Shown here: positions 6,877-35,836 of the stretch, one piece after another
How positions within the stretch are numbered: the stretch's first letter is position 1
Layout of the letters: each line of letters begins with the position of its first letter
Assembly (NCBI GenBank): GCA_903825285.1
Contig: CAIJZY010000014.1
Location: 1 to 64,000 of the forward strand
DNA from: an uncultured Opitutia bacterium
Lineage (GTDB): Bacteria; Verrucomicrobiota; Verrucomicrobiia; Opitutales; Opitutaceae
Direction: 5' to 3'
Length of the DNA: 64,000 bases
Program-made: the position numbers and the translations under genes
The notes under the pieces: model-generated
What the model was told of the DNA's origin: nothing
Databases searched by the model: none
What the model saw: only the letters and a program-made list of their open reading frames with translations

Positions 6877-7457
6877 TGACTAACCAGCAGCTGATGGCTT
6901 TCATCAAGGCCCAGCCGATCGGCTTTGGCTGCGGCGCGCTCGTGGTGGTCCTCGGGCTCGGCATCTATTTCCGCGGCGACATGATTCCGGACGCCGAGAA
7001 CCTGCTCGACCAGAAGGCCACGCTGGGCGAGCGCCTGGATGCCAACCTCAAGAACGGCGTGCAGTTGCCCGACCAGCTGGCGGCCATCTCCGCCGCCCGC
7101 GAGCAGATGGAGTCACGGCTCGTGCATCCCGACGAACTGGCGAAGAACCAGCAGTATTTCTACAAGCTCGAGGCCGACACGGGCATCAAGCTCGTCGACC
7201 TCCGCCAGATCCAGCCCCCGGCGCAGCGTCCGGGTGCCAAGACCGGCCCGAAGCTGTTTTATCTTCCCGTGGGCTATTCCGTGGCCGTGCGTGGCAACTA
7301 TGCGCACCTGCTCGACTTCCTACGGCGGCTGGAAACCGGCTCGCGCTACTGTCGCGTGATGTCCGCCACCGTCAATCTGGCCGGTCCCACCGACAAGGAT
7401 CGCGCCAGCGACCTGACCCTCAATCTTGGCCTGGAGCTCCTGGGCCAACCGCAATGA
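6876..7457 (+). CDS. pilO: PilO-like inner-membrane pilus assembly protein
   Basis: 193 aa. One N-terminal membrane span (about residues 15-32, GFGCGALVVVLGLGIYF), a helical linker with LDANLKNG and EQMESRL segments, then an alpha/beta periplasmic domain that includes the YSVAVRGNYAHLLDFLRRLE signature of PilO-type proteins. It should dimerise with PilN to form the alignment complex between PilM and the secretin. I chose the ATG at 6876, which overlaps the pilN stop as TGATG and has AGGAG at 6861-6865, rather than the in-frame GTG at 6873. The stop overlaps the next start by ATGA. Confidence 0.75.
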   Translation: MTNQQLMAFIKAQPIGFGCGALVVVLGLGIYFRGDMIPDAENLLDQKATLGERLDANLKNGVQLPDQLAAISAAREQMESRLVHPDELAKNQQYFYKLEADTGIKLVDLRQIQPPAQRPGAKTGPKLFYLPVGYSVAVRGNYAHLLDFLRRLETGSRYCRVMSATVNLAGPTDKDRASDLTLNLGLELLGQPQ

Positions 7458-13809: not shown

Positions 13810-13870
13810 GTGGGAGCGAGCTTGCTCGCGACCCTTTGACCAAGGCGGTCGCGAGCAAGCTCGCTCCCAC
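13810..13870. repeat. REPIN 1 (paired inverted REP units) between the two fumarase genes
   Basis: Two perfect inverted copies of the 22-bp REP unit that begins GTGGGAGCGAGC and ends CTCGCGA (13810-13831 forward, 13849-13870 reverse), separated by 17 bp. It sits between convergent stop codons, where it could fold as a bidirectional transcription barrier. Confidence 0.95.
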
Positions 13871-28484: not shown

Positions 28485-28651
28485 GGCGCGAACCCCATAT
28501 TGGTTACCGCTTCTGGCCGGTTGGCAACTGCGACCTGCAGCCGCGGGGTCGAACCACCTAATGCTTTGGGAGTAATTGGCCCTCGGAGCCGCCGCGCGCT
28601 TGCCCCCGGGCTGGCCGCGGGCCAGCTTGGGTGGTAATTCGTGTCATCCCC

Positions 28652-30199
28652 ATGACCGCCGCCGACCCCCCGCATCTGCTTTCCGGCCAGGGCCTGAACC
28701 TCGCGCTCCTCCGCGGACTGCGCGCCCGCCGGGCCCGGCTCGGGCTCACGCCGGAAGCCCACCAGCGCATCGCCGCGTCGCGGGCGGTGGTGGACCGGCT
28801 GCAGGCCGGCGAGCACTCCTATTACGGCATCAACACCGGCTTCGGCGCGCTGGCGCACACGCGCATCGCCCCGGGCGACATCGAGAAGCTCCAGGAAAAC
28901 CTCATCCTCAGCCACGCCGTGGGCGTCGGCCCCGAGGTCGACCCGGCCATCGTGCGGCTCATGCTGCTGCTCAAGGTCAACGCGCTCGCCCTCGGCCTGT
29001 CCGGCGTGCGTCCGGTCCTCGTCGATTACCTCCTGCGCTTCCACAACGCGGACCTCCTCCCGGTGGTCTATGCCAAGGGCTCGCTCGGCGCCTCCGGCGA
29101 CCTAGCGCCGCTGGCCCACCTCACGCTCCCGCTGCTGGGGCTGGGCGAGGTCTGGATGAACGGCACGAAGCGGCCCGCGCCCGAGGCGCTGGCGTCGGTC
29201 GGGCTCGCGCCGCTGCGCCTGCACTCGAAGGAGGGCCTGGCGCTGATCAACGGCACGCAGTTCATGGCCGCCCACGCGGTGCACGCGCTGCTGCGGATCG
29301 AGGACCTGATCCGGACGGCCGATCTCGTCGCCGCCATGACCCTCGAGGCCATGCGGGGCAGCGCGACGCCGTTCGACGCGCGCATCCACGCCGCGCGGCC
29401 GCACCCCGGCCAGGCGGAGACGGCCGACAATGTCCGCCGGCTGCTCGCCGGCTCGGAGATCCTGCCGTCCCACCTCAACTGCGGCAAGGTGCAGGACCCG
29501 TACTCGCTGCGCTGCGTGCCGCAGGTGCACGGGGCGGTGCGCGACGCCGTCCGGCATGCGCGCGCGGTGGTCGAGATCGAGATCAACTCCGTCACCGACA
29601 ACCCGCTGGTCTTCCCCAACGGCGACGTCGTCAGCGGCGGCAACTTCCACGGCGAGCCGCTGGCCTTCGCGCTCGACTACCTGGCCATCGCCACGGCGGA
29701 GATCGCCTCGATCGCCGAGCGCCGGCTCTACCTCCTGCTCGGCGGCGACACGATGGGGGAGAAGAAGCTGCCCAAGCTCCTGATGAGCGACACCGGCCTG
29801 AACAGCGGCTTCATGCTGCCGCAGTACGCCGCCGCCGCGCTGGTCTCGGAGAACAAGATCCTGGCCCATCCCGCCTCGGTGGACTCGATCCCGAGCTCGC
29901 TCGGCCAGGAGGACCACGTGTCCATGGGCGCGATCGCCGCGACCAAGCTGCTCGAGGTGGTGAACAACGCCGAGACGGTCGTCGCGATCGAGCTGATGAG
30001 CGCGGCGCAGGCGCTCGACTTCATCCACCCGCTGCGGGCCGGCCGCGGCATCGAGGCCGCCCACGCCGAGGTCCGGCGCCATATCGCCTTCGCGGAGGCC
30101 GACCGGCTGTTTCACAACGACATCCAGACCTCCCTCGAGCTGGTCCGCAGCGGCACGCTCCTCGCCGCCGCCGAGGCCGAGTGCGGCCCGCTCCTCTAG
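28652..30199 (+). CDS. hutH: Histidine ammonia-lyase
   Basis: 515 aa. Removes ammonia from histidine to give urocanate, step 1 of histidine degradation. The Ala-Ser-Gly triad that cyclises to the MIO cofactor is at residues 147-149 in KGSLGASGDLAPLAHL; NTGFGALAH (about 61-69) carries the catalytic tyrosine region YYGINTGFG. Length matches the family (about 510). Start ATG at 28652 (MTAADPP) preferred to an upstream in-frame start at 28631. hutU follows after 6 bp. Confidence 0.95.
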   Translation: MTAADPPHLLSGQGLNLALLRGLRARRARLGLTPEAHQRIAASRAVVDRLQAGEHSYYGINTGFGALAHTRIAPGDIEKLQENLILSHAVGVGPEVDPAIVRLMLLLKVNALALGLSGVRPVLVDYLLRFHNADLLPVVYAKGSLGASGDLAPLAHLTLPLLGLGEVWMNGTKRPAPEALASVGLAPLRLHSKEGLALINGTQFMAAHAVHALLRIEDLIRTADLVAAMTLEAMRGSATPFDARIHAARPHPGQAETADNVRRLLAGSEILPSHLNCGKVQDPYSLRCVPQVHGAVRDAVRHARAVVEIEINSVTDNPLVFPNGDVVSGGNFHGEPLAFALDYLAIATAEIASIAERRLYLLLGGDTMGEKKLPKLLMSDTGLNSGFMLPQYAAAALVSENKILAHPASVDSIPSSLGQEDHVSMGAIAATKLLEVVNNAETVVAIELMSAAQALDFIHPLRAGRGIEAAHAEVRRHIAFAEADRLFHNDIQTSLELVRSGTLLAAAEAECGPLL

Positions 30200-30205
30200 G
30201 CCGGC

Positions 30206-31906
30206 ATGAACACCGCCCGCACCCTCCGCGCCCCGCGCGGCAACCAGCGCACCTGCCAGACCTGGGCCGCCGAGGCCGCGCTGCGCATGCTGCTGAACAA
30301 CCTCGACCCGGAGGTCGCCGAGCGCCCGCGGGACCTCGTCGTCTACGGCGGACGCGGCAAGGCCGCGCGCAACTGGGCGTGCCTGGAGGCGATCCTCGCC
30401 GCGCTGCCGAAGCTCGCGCCCGATGAGACGCTGCTGATCCAGTCCGGCAAGCCCGTCGGCGTCGTCCGCACCCACGCCGACGCCCCGCGCGTGCTGCTCG
30501 CGAACAGCAACCTGGTCCCGAAGTGGGCCACCCAGGAGGTCTTCGACGACCTCGAGCGCCGCGGCCTGATGATGTACGGCCAGATGACCGCCGGCTCCTG
30601 GATCTACATCGGCACGCAGGGAATCCTGCAGGGCACATACGAGACCTTTGCCGAGGCGGGGCGCCAGCATTTCGGCGGCGACCTGGCGGGCCGGCTCTGC
30701 GTCACGGGCGGCTGCGGCGGCATGGGCGGAGCGCAGCCGCTGGCGGTCACCATGGCCGGCGGCACGTGCCTGATCGCAGACGTGGACCGGACGCGGCTGC
30801 AGAAGCGCGTCCACGACCGCTACCTCGACGAGATCGCGCCGGACCTCGACACCGCGATTGACCGCGCGGTCGCGGCGGCCGGACGGCGCGAGGCCCGGAG
30901 CGTGGGCGTGGTGGCGAACATCACCGACCTCCTCGAGCGGCTGATCGCGCGGAAGGTGCGCGTGGATGTGCTCACCGACCAGACCAGCGCGCATGACCCG
31001 CTGGTCGGGTACGTGCCCGCGGGCTATCCGCTCAAGGCGGCGGCGGTCCTGCGCCGGCAGGACCCCCGGAAATACCAGCGGCTCTCGCTCGCCTCGATGG
31101 CGCGGCACGTGCGCGCGATGCTCGCGCTGCGGCGGCGCGGGGCGCAGACCTTCGACTACGGCAACAACCTCCGGCAGCACGCGTTCGACCAGGGCGTGAA
31201 GCGCGCGTTCGACTTCCCGGGCTTCGTGCCGGCGTACATCCGCCCGCAGTTCTGCCTCGGCCGCGGCCCGTTCCGCTGGGTGGCCCTGTCGGGGGATCCG
31301 GCGGACATCCTCGCGACCGACCGCGCCCTGATGGAGCTCTTTCCGCGGGACGCCGCGCTGCACCGCTGGCTCCGGCTGGCGGGCGAGCGCGTGGCGTTCC
31401 AGGGGCTCCCGGCGCGCATCTGCTGGCTCGGGCTCGGCGAGCGTCACCGCGCGGGACTGCTCTTCAACCAGATGGTGGCCGACGGCCGCGTGCAGGCGCC
31501 GATCGTGATCGGCCGCGACCATTTGGACTGCGGCTCCGTGGCCAGCCCGAACCGCGAGACCGAGGCGATGAAGGACGGCTCCGACGCGGTCAGCGACTGG
31601 GCGATCCTCAACGCGCTGGTCAACACCGCGAGCGGCGCCTCGTGGGTCAGCTTCCATCACGGCGGCGGCGTGGGCATCGGCTACAGCCAGCATGCCGGGC
31701 AGGTCATCGTCGCCGACGGCACGCCCGACGCCGCCCGCCGGCTTGAGCGCGTCCTCACCAACGACCCGATGATGGGCGTGTTCCGCCACGCCGACGCGGG
31801 CTACGAGCTGGCGCAGGGCTGCGCCCGGCGGCTGAAGGTGCCGATCCCGATGGCCGGGGCCAAGCGCGGGCGGAGGCAGGTCGCGAGCAAGCTCGCTCCC
31901 ACATGA
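30206..31906 (+). CDS. hutU: Urocanate hydratase
   Basis: 566 aa. Adds water to urocanate using tightly bound NAD, step 2 of the hut pathway. [19 protein letters not shown] (about residues 170-188) is the NAD-binding loop and [17 protein letters not shown] a strong urocanase signature; [10 protein letters not shown] and [15 protein letters not shown] also match. The C-terminal end is odd: the last eight residues (VASKLAPT) are translated from a REP unit, and the stop is reached just after it, overlapping the RAYT start by ATGA. So the native C-terminus has probably been replaced or extended by the repeat. Confidence 0.93.
31881..31902 (-). repeat. REP unit at the hutU 3' end
   Basis: Perfect 22-bp REP unit in reverse orientation (starts TCGCGAGC, ends GCTCCCAC). 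It codes for the last residues of HutU. Confidence 0.95.
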
Positions 31907-32556
31907 GCGGCCAGGCCCCGAAATTTCCGCAAGGTGGGAGCGAGCTTGCTCGCGACCTGACCACCCGTCCGCGGGTCGGCTATGCCGACCTGCGGAGTCA
32001 CCGCTGGTCGTCTCCGGGAGCCAGGTATTTTGTCACCTTTTGCACGGCGGACCGACGGACGGGCCTGCACCTGCCACCCATCCTCGCTGGCCTGCAGCGG
32101 GAGTGCAGCGCGATCGAGGATTTCGGCGGTTGGGTGATGCGGGCGAGCGTGGTCATGCCCGACCATGTTCACCTCCTGCTCGCATTGGGCGAAAAGTTGT
32201 CCCTGGGCCAGGTGATCGCGCGCGTGAAGGCGAAGACCTCGCCGAAGCTGCGCGTCGCCCAACTGCGGTGGGAGGCCGGCTATTTCGAGCGGCGGCTGCG
32301 CGAATCCGATTCCGTGCTGCCGATCATCCATTACCTGGGGATGAACCCGGTCCGGGCCGGACTGGTTTCCCAGGGTGAGGAATGGCCGGGATTTTGGTGC
32401 CGCGCGGAGGATCGGCGCTGGTACGAGGAGAATGGTCCTGGGGCCGGGACCGAAGCGGATTGGTTGAGCTTTGCCGAGGGGGTTGGGCCGCGTAGGCTCG
32501 CGAGCAAGCTCGCTCCCACATCAGCCTCGGGTTCAATCTCCACCTCCCGCAAATGA
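31903..32556 (+). CDS. REP-associated tyrosine transposase (RAYT)
   Basis: 217 aa as drawn. Y1/HUH-family transposase of the TnpA_REP (IS200-like) group, thought to move REP/REPIN sequences. The HUH motif is in [11 protein letters not shown] (His 88 and His 90), preceded by the family start [13 protein letters not shown] and followed by [11 protein letters not shown] and [13 protein letters not shown], the usual RAYT core. A tyrosine in the GYFERRL or HYLGMNPV segment should be catalytic; which one was not settled. Residues 11-18 and about 199-205 are encoded by flanking REP units, so the true protein may start later than the ATG at 31903. ATGA overlaps join it to hutU and hutG. The gene appears intact. 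Confidence 0.85.
31934..31955 (+). repeat. REP unit at the left flank of RAYT
   Basis: Perfect 22-bp REP unit, forward orientation (starts GTGGGAGC, ends CTCGCGA). With the reverse unit at 32498-32519 it brackets the RAYT core in the same relative orientation as the arms of a REPIN. Confidence 0.95.
32498..32519 (-). repeat. REP unit at the right flank of RAYT
   Basis: Perfect reverse 22-bp REP unit, inside the 3' end of the RAYT reading frame and 34 bp before the hutG start. Confidence 0.95.
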
Positions 32557-33506
32557 CGGCGATTCCACCCACCCAGCCTGGCAAGTGGCCCGCGGCGATC
32601 GCCGCGGCGCGCTTTGCGGCGACGATCCGGCGGGACTCGACCGCGGGGTGCGCGGTGGCGCTGCTCGGGCTGCCGGACGACACCGGGGTCAGGCTCAACC
32701 ACGGCCGGCCGGGGGCCGCCGGCGGGCCGACGGCCTTTCGCGCCGCGCTCGCGCGCTATGGCGCGGCGGATCCCGCGGGCAGCCCGCTGCCGCAGGTGTT
32801 CGACGCCGGCGACGTGAAGCCGGGACGCTCCCTCGATGAAACCCATACGCGGGTCACTGCGGCGACTGCCGCGCTGCTTGAGCGCGGGCTCTTTCCCATC
32901 GCCATCGGCGGCGGCCACGACCTGACCTTTCCCTTCGTGCGCGCGGTCGCGGCCCGCCACCCGCGGCTCGCCGGGATCTACTTCGACGCCCACCTCGATG
33001 TCCGCGAGACCGCGGGCTCGGGCATGCCGTTCCGCCGACTCATAGAGGACTGCGGCGTCTCCGCGCTGCACCTGCATGGGTTTCGGCCGCTGGTGAACTC
33101 GCGCGAGCATCTGGCCTGGTTTCTCGGCCATGGTGGCCACCTCTGGCCGGAGGCGTCGGGCGTGGGAGCGAGCTTGCTCGCGACGTCGGGGCGCAGGGTC
33201 GCGAGCAAGCTCGCTCCCACCTCGAGCCCGCGGACTCGGAGCGCGGTGGCCATGGCCAAGGATCTCTTCGCGAGCTTCGACCTGGACGTGCTGGATGCCG
33301 CGCATGCGCCGGGGGTGAGTGCGCTCAATCCCGCGGGCTGGTCCGTGCGCGAGGCCGAGGGCTGGGTGCGGGCCTGCGGCGCCGATGGGCGCGTCCGCTG
33401 CTTCGACCTGATGGAACTCAACCCCGCTTTCGATGTGGACGGCCGCACCGCCCGCGTGGCGGCGCACCTGTTCCTGTCCTTCCTTGCCGGTTTCGTGGAG
33501 CGATGA
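32553..33506 (+). CDS. hutG: Formimidoylglutamase with an in-frame REPIN
   Basis: 317 aa, arginase/agmatinase (ureohydrolase) fold. Hydrolyses formiminoglutamate to glutamate and formamide, the last hut step. Binuclear Mn ligand motifs are present: GGGHDLTFP (about residues 120-128), YFDAHLDVRE (about 145-154) and SFDLDVLDAAHAPG (about 241-254). Residues about 204-223 ([20 protein letters not shown]) are translated from a complete REPIN and have no counterpart in the family; they fall between the HLAWFLGHGG helix region and the SFDLD metal motif, probably a surface loop. All metal motifs survive, so the enzyme may still work. ATGA overlaps with RAYT before and hutI after. Confidence 0.88.
   Translation: MTAIPPTQPGKWPAAIAAARFAATIRRDSTAGCAVALLGLPDDTGVRLNHGRPGAAGGPTAFRAALARYGAADPAGSPLPQVFDAGDVKPGRSLDETHTRVTAATAALLERGLFPIAIGGGHDLTFPFVRAVAARHPRLAGIYFDAHLDVRETAGSGMPFRRLIEDCGVSALHLHGFRPLVNSREHLAWFLGHGGHLWPEASGVGASLLATSGRRVASKLAPTSSPRTRSAVAMAKDLFASFDLDVLDAAHAPGVSALNPAGWSVREAEGWVRACGADGRVRCFDLMELNPAFDVDGRTARVAAHLFLSFLAGFVER
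33162..33220. repeat. REPIN 2, inside hutG
   Basis: Forward REP 33162-33183 and reverse REP 33199-33220, both perfect 22-bp units, with a 15-bp spacer (59 bp in total). It is read in frame without a stop. Confidence 0.97.
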
Positions 33507-34720
33507 GCCAGCTGATCCGCAACGCCCGCATCCTGACCCTGGCGTCGCCCGCCGGCCCGCCGCCCGGGCGCCCGCACCGGGGCCGCGCGCTGGGCGACCT
33601 GGGCGTCATCGCCCACGGCGAGGTGCTGGTCAGCGGCGACCGGATCGCGGCGGTGGGTGAGAAAGTCGACGCGCCCGCGGACGCCGAGGTGATCGACGCG
33701 AACGGCCGCGTGCTGCTGCCCGGCTTCGTGGACTGCCACACCCACGCGTGCTGGGCTGGCGACCGGTTGGCCGAGTGGGAGCAGAAGCTGCAGGGCCGGA
33801 CGTACCTGGACATCCTCAAGCACGGCGGCGGCATCCACGCCACCGTGCGCGCGGTGCGGGAGGCCACGCAGAAGCAGCTCGCCTCGGGGCTCCGGGACCG
33901 GCTCGGGCTCATGCTCCGCGAGGGCACGACAACCGTGGAGGTGAAGAGCGGCTATGGCCTCACGACGGAGGCCGAGCTCAAGCTCCTCCGCGCGATCCGC
34001 CGCGCCGCCACCGAGTGGCCGGGCACCGTGGTGGCCACGGCGCTGCTGGGCCACGCGTTCGAGGGTGAACTCGAGGAGTATGCGAAGATGGTGGTGAAGG
34101 AGATGCTGCCGGAGGTCGCGCGCGAGTTTCCCGAGATCACGGTGGATGCCTTCTGCGAGCGCGATGCTTGGACGGTGGAGGCGTGCGTGCGGCTCTTTGA
34201 AAAGGCGCGCAAGCATCACCCGATCCGGGTGCACGCGGACCAGTTCAATTCCCTCGGCATGATTCCCGAGGCGATCCGCCTGTTCGCCCGCAGCGTGGAT
34301 CACCTGGAGGCCGCGACGAAAGCAGACCTCGTGGCGCTGGCCGCGTCCGAGACGATGGGCGTGATCCTCCCTGCGACGGGATTTCACACGGACCAGCGCT
34401 ACACGCGCGCCGGGTTCTTCGTGGACCAGGGTGGGGCGGTGGCGCTCGCCACCAACTGCAATCCCGGCTCGGCGCCGACGCACTCGATGCCCTTTGCGAT
34501 CGCGCTGGCGGTGCGGCACTGCGGGCTGACGCCAGCGGAGGCGATCGCGGCGGCGACCGTGAACGCCGCGGCGGTGCTCGGGCTCGCGGACCGCGGCCGG
34601 ATCGAGCCCGGCCTGCGCGCGGACCTGATTTTGCTGCACCACCGCGACGAGCGTCAGCTCGCCTACGAGCTCGGCGGCAACCCGGTCGACCTCGTGATCT
34701 GTAACGGGCAGAAAATCTGA
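33503..34720 (+). CDS. hutI: Imidazolonepropionase
   Basis: 405 aa, amidohydrolase fold. Hydrolyses imidazolone-5-propionate to formiminoglutamate, step 3 of the hut pathway. Metal-binding motif VDCHTHACWAGDR (about residues 75-87), HADQFNSLGM (about 245), ATGFHTDQRYTRAGFFVDQGG and ALATNCNPGSAPTHSMPFAIALA (conserved in HutI). The start overlaps the hutG stop by ATGA. It is the last hut enzyme gene; a long word inverted repeat follows 14 bp later. Confidence 0.95.
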   Translation: MSQLIRNARILTLASPAGPPPGRPHRGRALGDLGVIAHGEVLVSGDRIAAVGEKVDAPADAEVIDANGRVLLPGFVDCHTHACWAGDRLAEWEQKLQGRTYLDILKHGGGIHATVRAVREATQKQLASGLRDRLGLMLREGTTTVEVKSGYGLTTEAELKLLRAIRRAATEWPGTVVATALLGHAFEGELEEYAKMVVKEMLPEVAREFPEITVDAFCERDAWTVEACVRLFEKARKHHPIRVHADQFNSLGMIPEAIRLFARSVDHLEAATKADLVALAASETMGVILPATGFHTDQRYTRAGFFVDQGGAVALATNCNPGSAPTHSMPFAIALAVRHCGLTPAEAIAAATVNAAAVLGLADRGRIEPGLRADLILLHHRDERQLAYELGGNPVDLVICNGQKI

Positions 34721-34734
34721 TCTGGACGGTTTAA

Positions 34735-34811
34735 TCGCGGAGACACGGAGGGACGGAGACGCGGAAAATCACTGTTTGCTTCCGCGTTTTCGTCCCTCCG
34801 TGTTTCCGCGA
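34735..34811. repeat. Word inverted repeat, CACGGAG type
   Basis: Arms 34735-34766 and 34780-34811, 29 of 32 bases pairing, 13-base loop. Each arm holds words CGGAGACA-CGGAGGGA-CGGAGACG; all three mismatches are G-to-A differences. It lies between hutI and the AraC gene and could end hut transcription. Confidence 0.92.
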
Positions 34812-34847
34812 TTGCCTGTCTAGGGGCGCCGGCGTATCGCCGGTGAC

Positions 34848-35750
34848 GTGTCACTCGCCCATTTTCTTGGCCAGGATCTGGTGGTCGCCTTGGGGAAACT
34901 CGATGCGGGCCATGTGCTGGGCCCGTGGCGCGGGGCCCGGCCGCAGGACTGCCGTCCGCGGATGCGGTTCGCCCCGGTGCTGTACGGCGAGGACCATGCG
35001 CACGGCCATGCCGAGCTCTGCCTGCTGCTGGAGGGGCGCTGCCGGTTCAGTTTCGAGCACGCGGGCTGCGTGCTGCAGGCCGGCGACCTGGTGGTGCTGC
35101 CGGCGGGACTGCCGCACGCCGAGGCCTATGTCCGGCCCGGCGAGGGTTACCGGCTGGCGTGGTGGAGCCTCAACGAGGCGGAGCCGCGGCTGCATGTGAC
35201 ACGTTACGCCCGGCGCGGTGGGTTTGCGATGGAGCACCTGATGAACCTGGCGCTGCTGCCGGCGGATGCGCGGGAGAAGCTCGCGAAATTGCGGGCGCTG
35301 GCGGCGTCGGCGCGGCGGCCCGATGCCGACGCCGTGCGCGAGGCGATGCTGTCGGTGACGCTCGCGCTCTACCGGCGCGTGCTCGACGGCGGCGAGGCCC
35401 AGCTCGACTCCCGGGCGCAGCTCGTGCGGCGCGCGACGGAATTTGTCCGCGCGAACACCGGCCGGGCGCTCGCACTCGCCGACGTGGCGAACGCGGTGCA
35501 CGTTTCGCCGAACTATCTCACGAGCCTGTTCCGGGCGGAGACAGGCACGCCGCTCGGGCGGTTCATCCTCGCGGAACGCATCGCGCTCGCGCAGCGGCGC
35601 CTGCGGCCGGCGGGGGCGACGGTGAAGTCCGTCGCGGCGGAGTTGGGCTTTGCGGACCCGTTCACCTTCAGCCGCGCGTTCAAACGCGTGACCGGCCAGT
35701 CACCCAAGGCCTGGGCTGGTCAGCGGACAGCCCCGCGACCCGGAAACTGA
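34848..35750 (+). CDS. AraC-family transcriptional regulator
   Basis: 300 aa from a GTG start (VSLAHFLGQ). The N-terminal cupin-like sensor half (about residues 1-160) includes HAHGHAELCLLLEGRCRFSFEHAGCVLQAGDLVVLPAGLPH, typical of ligand-binding AraC arms. The C-terminal double helix-turn-helix (about 205-290) reads ALADVANAVHVSPNYLTSLFRAETGTPLGRFI and VKSVAAELGFADPFTFSRAFKRVTGQSPKAW, an almost ideal AraC signature. It follows the hut genes on the same strand and might control them, but the word repeat between them suggests separate transcription. Ligand unknown. Confidence 0.85.
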   Translation: MSLAHFLGQDLVVALGKLDAGHVLGPWRGARPQDCRPRMRFAPVLYGEDHAHGHAELCLLLEGRCRFSFEHAGCVLQAGDLVVLPAGLPHAEAYVRPGEGYRLAWWSLNEAEPRLHVTRYARRGGFAMEHLMNLALLPADAREKLAKLRALAASARRPDADAVREAMLSVTLALYRRVLDGGEAQLDSRAQLVRRATEFVRANTGRALALADVANAVHVSPNYLTSLFRAETGTPLGRFILAERIALAQRRLRPAGATVKSVAAELGFADPFTFSRAFKRVTGQSPKAWAGQRTAPRPGN

Positions 35751-35777
35751 ATCCAAAGATCGACCGGCCAGTGCCAT

Positions 35778-35836
35778 GTGGGAGCGAGCTTGCTCGCGAC
35801 TCCGGCGCCATCGGTCGCGAGCAAGCTCGCTCCCAC
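35778..35836. repeat. REPIN 3, between the AraC regulator and DegT gene
   Basis: Forward REP 35778-35799 and reverse REP 35815-35836, both perfect, 15-bp spacer. It begins 27 bp after the AraC stop. Confidence 0.97.

Follow-up and report, generated by a model that had tools for sequence, protein, structure and literature searches.

Three described systems stand closest to the one considered here, which lies in a window of 64,000 nucleotides (the whole stretch analysed; contig CAIJZY010000014.1) from an uncultured bacterium of the family Opitutaceae and consists of repetitive extragenic palindromic (REP) units, inverted REP pairs (REPINs) and a gene for a REP-associated tyrosine transposase (RAYT). 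In Pseudomonas fluorescens, class PF8 of RAYT orthogroup IV (Nunvar et al. 2013, PMC3686654) likewise combines a RAYT with cognate REPs. Its REP, GTGGGAGCGAGCTTGCTCGCGAT, holds the 22-mer of our window letter for letter, although the host belongs to another phylum, and in the literature library searched this was the only paper found to print the string. A preliminary description of the window had noted REPs very similar to those of Pseudomonas; with PF8, as printed in that source, the likeness is in fact identity.

Within the Opitutaceae, GTAG REPs, REPtrons, GTGG variants and intragenic REPs were published for Opitutus terrae by Di Nocera et al. (2013, PMC3733652), whose text also reports intragenic REP inserts coding for 20-30 amino acids across several species. 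The O. terrae REPs resemble those reported here in being GTRG-tagged, in their GTGG variants and in the many intragenic copies; the families named for O. terrae in the text are GTAG-17, -19 and -20. The window genome has the GTAG-1 format. The REPINs of P. fluorescens SBW25, as presented by Bertels and Rainey (2011, PMC3116915), share with ours invariant inverted arms, a less conserved spacer, a hairpin and a RAYT in the genome, but fall into spacing classes of 71 and 110 bp with 430 doublets, compared with 58-61 bp in most exact-arm pairs, and about 39 pairs in all, here. Less conserved or highly diverse spacers have thus been described before (PMC3116915, PMC8049555), and the statement that RAYT genes are always flanked by two inverted REPs dates from 2010 (PMC2817692). 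A modelling paper of 2021 (PMC8049555) characterizes RAYTs as single-copy and vertically inherited, and REPINs as without evidence of significant transfer at the species level; our observations contradict neither statement.

In this work, we describe a genuine and ordinary REPIN/RAYT system of a kind already known; neither REPs in Verrucomicrobia nor this REP sequence is new. We give a probability of about 0.85 to the view that it is a resident system (REPtron) of the Opitutaceae, in which the 22-mer identical to that of PF8 was reached independently.

REP units, REPINs and the RAYT gene

The exact 22-mer GTGGGAGCGAGCTTGCTCGCGA is present nine times in the window, at 13810 (+), 13849 (-), 31881 (-), 31934 (+), 32498 (-), 33162 (+), 33199 (-), 35778 (+) and 35815 (-), just as the preliminary description had it. 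Scanning the window at up to three mismatches revealed no copy beyond these nine, shuffled sequences leading one to expect 0.01. Six of them form three head-to-head pairs, that is, REPINs of 61, 59 and 59 bp, which fold into near-perfect hairpins (Table 1). The remaining three copies (31881, 31934 and 32498) flank the RAYT gene and include no REPIN. Copies at the RAYT gene read GTGG-GA-GCGAGC-TT-GCTCGC-GA plus C or G, and show all parts of the GTAG-1 format of Di Nocera et al. (2013, PMC3733652): GTRG, a GW dinucleotide, a perfect stem, a short loop and a 3-nt tail.

The RAYT gene is complete, as had been proposed, and scores 87 bits against NCBIfam NF047646 (REP_Tyr_transpos), whose cut-off is 80; it also matches Pfam Y1_Tnp and the solved TnpArep chain 4er8 (E 4e-4). 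Its product carries a HuH-like motif, DHVH, and a Y within HYLGMNPVR, placed by alignment only; we take this H-x-H and Y to have the catalytic roles. The protein agrees with the HuH/Y1 transposase fold, related to IS200/IS605, and with RAYT-specific sequence. Inverted REPs at 31934 (+) and 32498 (-) bracket the gene, with an outer span of 586 bp.

The window genome (G000) comprises 62 contigs and 3.74 Mb. It contains 86 sites at up to two mismatches, 71 of them exact, against none for the reversed-pattern control, so that the 22-mer is by no means restricted to the window. When the regions around these sites were scanned at up to four mismatches, 90 sites fell into 47 clusters. Of these, 40 are '+-', including two in which the pair overlaps and has collapsed; a '-+' cluster lies at the RAYT gene, and the rest are one '+--' and five single units. 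These counts sustain the REPIN/RAYT system in a verrucomicrobial chromosome that the preliminary description had put forward, together with the pairing that it proposed to check. The arms are near-invariant and the spacers vary widely, with 14-17 nt, or a unit length of 58-61 bp, in 26 of the 31 exact-arm pairs. The perfect identity of the copies had been ascribed to recent spread or strong upkeep; this is plausible for the arms, but does not extend to the spacers.

REPINs are mostly extragenic. Among the 35 pairs with up to two mismatches per arm, 16 fall in 20 open reading frames (ORFs) passing the size limits (180 aa, with at least 40 aa before and at least 60 aa after the pair), and only in hutG does a Pfam domain span the pair, in a check that is blind to genes without a Pfam domain and to insertions close to gene ends. 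Two REPINs lie less than 4 kb from the RAYT gene, where 0.09 are expected for 41 pairs (P = 0.004). The genome has two more RAYT-like genes, at C28:18000-18407 (106.7 bits, above the cut-off) and C37:27710-28117 (59.2 bits, below it). No 22-mer at up to three mismatches occurs within 1.5 kb on either side of them, and the window RAYT is therefore, by position, the cognate one.

Palindromy of the sequences flanking REPINs was not significant at any of seven lengths, and matches to an inner stem within the spacers were fewer than in shuffled sequences. We also observed 26-bp perfect palindromes resembling collapsed REPINs, GTGGGAGCGAGC(TT/AA)GCTCGCTCCCAC, at C38:84995 and C37:5983, and a similar form flanks one RAYT from the order of a Marinobacter genome (L224). 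A minor REP variant, with the loop TG replacing TT in both arms, makes up the pairs at C24:61378, C14:153014 and C36:22420, and is found in genome G265 too.

Relatives of the RAYT and origin of the REP sequence

We scanned a sample of named genomes for RAYTs and kept the best 80 loci. Among the matches listed, the first 17 (L129-L145) all belong to Verrucomicrobiota, at 34-47% identity; judged by sequence match, the nearest RAYTs found in that list are those of Verrucomicrobiota, mostly Opitutaceae. A quick tree was built from 77 rows and 138 columns, the rows being distinct domains of at least 100 bits kept from 164 extracted ones and leaving out the RAYT-like genes of C28 and C37. In this tree the window RAYT falls in a clade of 48 rows with a Shimodaira-Hasegawa-like approximate likelihood ratio test (SH-aLRT) value of 97, composed of Opitutaceae but for one Kiritimatiellae row and with no Pseudomonadota; in a larger tree the clade has 54 rows (SH-aLRT 92). 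Of 23 rows from Pseudomonadota or from the Marinobacter order, which we take to be Pseudomonadales, 18 group in a clade of their own (SH-aLRT 83), and the other five also lie outside the Opitutaceae clade. The RAYT tree suggested with the preliminary description thus gives no support to an import of the gene from Pseudomonas.

REP stem type follows RAYT lineage. With 43 of the 77 rows labelled (the 34 without a classed REP being left out of the count), the tree requires 16 changes of stem type, and none of 500 shuffles needed fewer than 23; the classes were fixed after the first tree had been viewed, with GCTTG stems merged with GCCTG. In the approximately unbiased (AU) test, a grouping of the window RAYT with six other Opitutaceae RAYTs of the GCGAGC stem was not rejected and had the higher likelihood (p-AU 0.606), and a single clade of GCGAGC RAYTs from both phyla, seven from Opitutaceae and two from the Pseudomonadales order, was rejected (p-AU 8e-5). 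The outer REP-to-REP span, 586 bp in the window, is 597-604 bp in five of the six other Opitutaceae RAYTs of this stem and 696 bp in the sixth.

The table for PF8 (PMC3686654) includes close REP variants that differ in inner stem pairs. Few changes consequently separate many REP classes, and parallel arrival is therefore the simplest reading. Most likely, the identity of the REP across phyla reflects a small REP sequence space together with parallel evolution, and the system is native to the Opitutaceae rather than borrowed from Pseudomonas.

Distribution, the hut operon and the history of the cassette

At up to one mismatch, the REP was found in 74 of 252 Opitutaceae genomes, representing 17 of 49 genera, including two of the 12 genomes of the window's own genus. 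Among 387 genomes sampled evenly across the phylum, ten contain the exact 22-mer, all of them Opitutaceae. The preliminary description had raised a much wider range of the system, and this is supported, but it has been in print since 2013 for O. terrae (PMC3733652). A tblastn search of the RAYT against plasmids gave no match.

Three observations concern REPINs of other genomes. At L126 (G146:C34:6160-6212), a GCGAGC-type REPIN apparently sits between the halves of a GCCTGC-type REP pair, as a nested REPIN. The same 10-nt spacer (CTGGTTCGTG or one base off) is shared by three species of genus g35 (G135, G139 and G146), and most REPIN spacers of G141 are near-identical to one another.

The RAYT gene is part of a histidine-utilization operon with the order hutH, hutU, RAYT, hutG, hutI (Table 1). 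ATGA overlaps join it to its neighbours at both ends, the hutU stop overlapping its start and its own stop overlapping the start of hutG, and REPs belong to the coding frames of the hutU end and of both RAYT ends. HutU has 566 aa, against 559 aa in a congener. HutG scores 165.9 bits against TIGR01227, under the equivalog cut-off of 229, and its identity is consequently based on Pfam Arginase and the operon context. The REPIN at 33162 forms an in-frame insert in hutG, whose product in congener G162 has 291 aa instead of 317. Three alignments with solved structures, with alike scores and possibly of variants of one formiminoglutamase, show gaps opposite the insert; a single-sequence structure prediction of HutG was unusable (predicted local distance difference test, pLDDT, 35).

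Table 1. Features of the REPIN/RAYT region and other REP pairs in the window
Feature	Coordinates	Strand	Remarks
REPIN	13810..13870		intergenic, 17-nt spacer; head-to-head REP pair; hairpin z -11.7
hutH (histidine ammonia-lyase)	28631..30199	+	TIGR01225
hutU (urocanate hydratase)	30206..31906	+	REP in C-terminus; TIGR01228, 908 bits
REP unit, outer left	31881..31902	-	exact match; codes for end residues of the hutU ORF
RAYT gene, 217 aa	31903..32556	+	NF047646, Pfam Y1_Tnp, 4er8 match
REP unit, left RAYT-cassette boundary	31934..31955	+	exact; within RAYT frame (GSELARD)
REP unit, right RAYT-cassette boundary	32498..32519	-	exact; within RAYT frame (ASKLAPT)
hutG-like formimidoylglutamase, 317 aa	32553..33506	+	REPIN insert; Pfam Arginase 1.2e-46
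REPIN	33162..33220		in frame within hutG, 15-nt spacer; missing from congener hutG; hairpin z -9.5
hutI (imidazolonepropionase)	33503..34720	+	TIGR01224
REPIN	35778..35836		directly downstream of araC-type gene, 15-nt spacer; exact arms; hairpin z -9.4

G162, the sole congener with a hutG match, has a syntenic hut operon at 77-86% DNA identity, without the RAYT gene and without the hutG REPIN; the flanks of the latter are too diverged for the junctions to be read, as was also the case for one C53 site in a congener. This synteny, together with the presence of copies on many contigs, led us to reject an assembly artefact in the window. We had taken G162 for a plain empty site, a reading dropped once its hutU-hutG gap (L110, about 7080-7386) turned out to contain a 12-nt relic of a REP head and a RAYT-like match of 9 aa, the WPGFW stretch, in the order and strand of the intact cassette. 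The relic is one of two such matches in the 254 kb scanned and 8 of 5000 shuffles contain one; for the 9-aa match, 24 of 1000 shuffles score equally high. In a profile search of the gap, one frame contained two colinear pieces but reached only 0.5 bits, less than the 3.2 bits of a frame on the other strand, a score attained by 7 of 996 shuffles. From the sequence of the gap, a decayed RAYT cassette in G162 is suggested, and the cassette may have been gained in the window species or lost in G162.

The second genome of the genus with the REP, G169, has its only pair within a block, at least 9.6 kb long, that matches the window genome at 100% identity (G169:C21:53126-66082 against G000:C53:465-13417; L286, L309). 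Elsewhere the aligned parts of that contig show 71-88% identity, and the identical block reaches the contig end, so it may stem from recombination or from a chimeric assembly. Because its pair sits in this block, G169 is not independent evidence.

Several observations weigh against a resident system with an independently reached REP. The window RAYT has a long branch (0.88) and shares no more than 49% identity with any row; in a quick tree of few columns, its placement inside the Opitutaceae clade is unsettled. Joining it to the Pseudomonadota is 25 log-likelihood units worse, with a p-AU of 0.0685 that stays above 0.05; both Pseudomonadales-order RAYTs of the rejected two-phylum clade bear the GTAG form, one base off the exact 22-mer, and the comparison covered sampled RAYTs of that order, with the PF8 RAYT itself, EIK66912 of P. 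fluorescens Q8r1-96, outside it. Some REP-rich genomes show no match to the window RAYT, for example G029 with 82 sites, of which those listed are nearly all of the GTAG form. Moreover, in their discussion of isolated or spotty REP classes, the authors of PMC3733652 and PMC3686654 held horizontal transfer likely. A recent import of a PF8-type RAYT with its REP from Pseudomonas would agree with the identity to PF8, with the AU value just given, with the presence of the exact 22-mer, at 1-6 copies each, in eight of the 341 genomes from the Marinobacter order and with the patchy occurrence in the genus, where the G169 pair counts only as part of the identical block. Set against the Verrucomicrobiota origin of the nearest RAYTs listed, the 48-row clade and the rejection of a same-stem clade of both phyla, however, such an import is very improbable. 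Horizontal transfer as raised in the preliminary description is hence not supported with Pseudomonas as source but keeps some standing within the family.

An arrival from another, unsampled genus of Opitutaceae is a less probable course than residence, yet one to be taken seriously: of the 11 congeners, only G169 has the REP at up to one mismatch, RAYTs with this class of REP are scattered over other genera, and the identical block bespeaks DNA exchange between congeners, or else a chimeric contig. On the other hand, the relic and RAYT-like match of G162, in conserved order, suggest that the cassette predates the species split, and a search of the 252 family genomes yielded nothing above 45% identity to the window RAYT. 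It is also conceivable, though rather unlikely, that the host has domesticated the RAYT for a task of its own, with RAYT translation coupled to the hut genes, and that REPINs would be kept as sites useful to the host rather than as selfish copies. The embedding between hutU and hutG with ATGA overlaps would fit this idea, as would the single-copy, vertical inheritance described in PMC8049555 and the finding that no genome has two RAYTs of the window REP class among the loci examined (30 per search). The operon site, however, is not shared: the only congener with a hutG match has no RAYT gene. Residence in the Opitutaceae is our preferred reading.

A second REP head and the proposed mechanism

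By analogy with TnpAREP, the RAYT would act as a single-strand HuH/tyrosine nuclease, encoded between its two inverted REPs, that recognizes, in exposed single strands, the GTGG head together with the GCGAGC-TT-GCTCGC hairpin; PMC8266576 lists among the mechanistic steps a cleavage of single-stranded DNA in which the GTRG head acts as guide. After cutting, it would copy or move paired REPs to new, mostly intergenic sites. The paired arms, needed for recognition, would stay near-invariant and the spacer would drift, RAYT and REP stem would evolve in step, and the 22-mer of Pseudomonas would have been arrived at independently within the narrow permitted format GTRG-GA-GCNNGC-TT-GCNNGC-GA.

At 19 of 62 ends of exact-arm REPINs, against 1.2 expected, another GTGGGA with no more than one mismatch stands outside the REPIN, 9-14 nt away from its REP head. 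The distance is exactly 11 nt in ten ends, and 17 of 18 REPINs have the motif on one side only. The motif was found by inspection, not predicted beforehand. It was absent from all 12 ends of imperfect-arm pairs, occurred in the opposite orientation at 3 of the 62 ends, and in other genera was seen at one of 40 ends of 20 pairs (18 from g35 and two from G073). Genome-wide there are 11 exact GTGGGA-N4-7-GTGGGA pairs, ten of which are next to a REPIN or form part of a GTGGGA array that leads into one; the backwards control pattern gave five matches. Bases between the outer GTGGGA and the REPIN are REP-like, with GCG at -5 to -3 in 19 of 30 cases compared with 40 of 156. We first read the outer GTGGGA as a target site, but a duplicated head fits better because of these REP-like bases.

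Over the window genome (loci L073-L109 and the window), the outer flanks of many REPINs hold a second, decayed copy of the REP head, GTGGGAGCGAG-like, some 11 nt out and mostly on one side. At C53:38832-38873, GTGGGA repeats 12 nt apart lead into a REPIN.

As a tentative and rather doubtful suggestion, the decayed outer head may be a scar left by the RAYT when inserting or copying REPINs, for example through a switch of template in the first half-stem. Were this true, the insertion reaction, termed poorly understood in a 2021 study (PMC8266576), would have left a footprint that can be read, and one-sided head duplication beside near-invariant REPINs would offer a concrete handle on the insertion mechanism. 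For the family, the data reveal an Opitutaceae RAYT clade whose several REP classes (GCGAGC, GCCTGC and GGGGC stems) go with RAYT lineages, in parallel to the situation in Pseudomonas. They also call for caution, since identical REPs in distant bacteria need not mean horizontal transfer.

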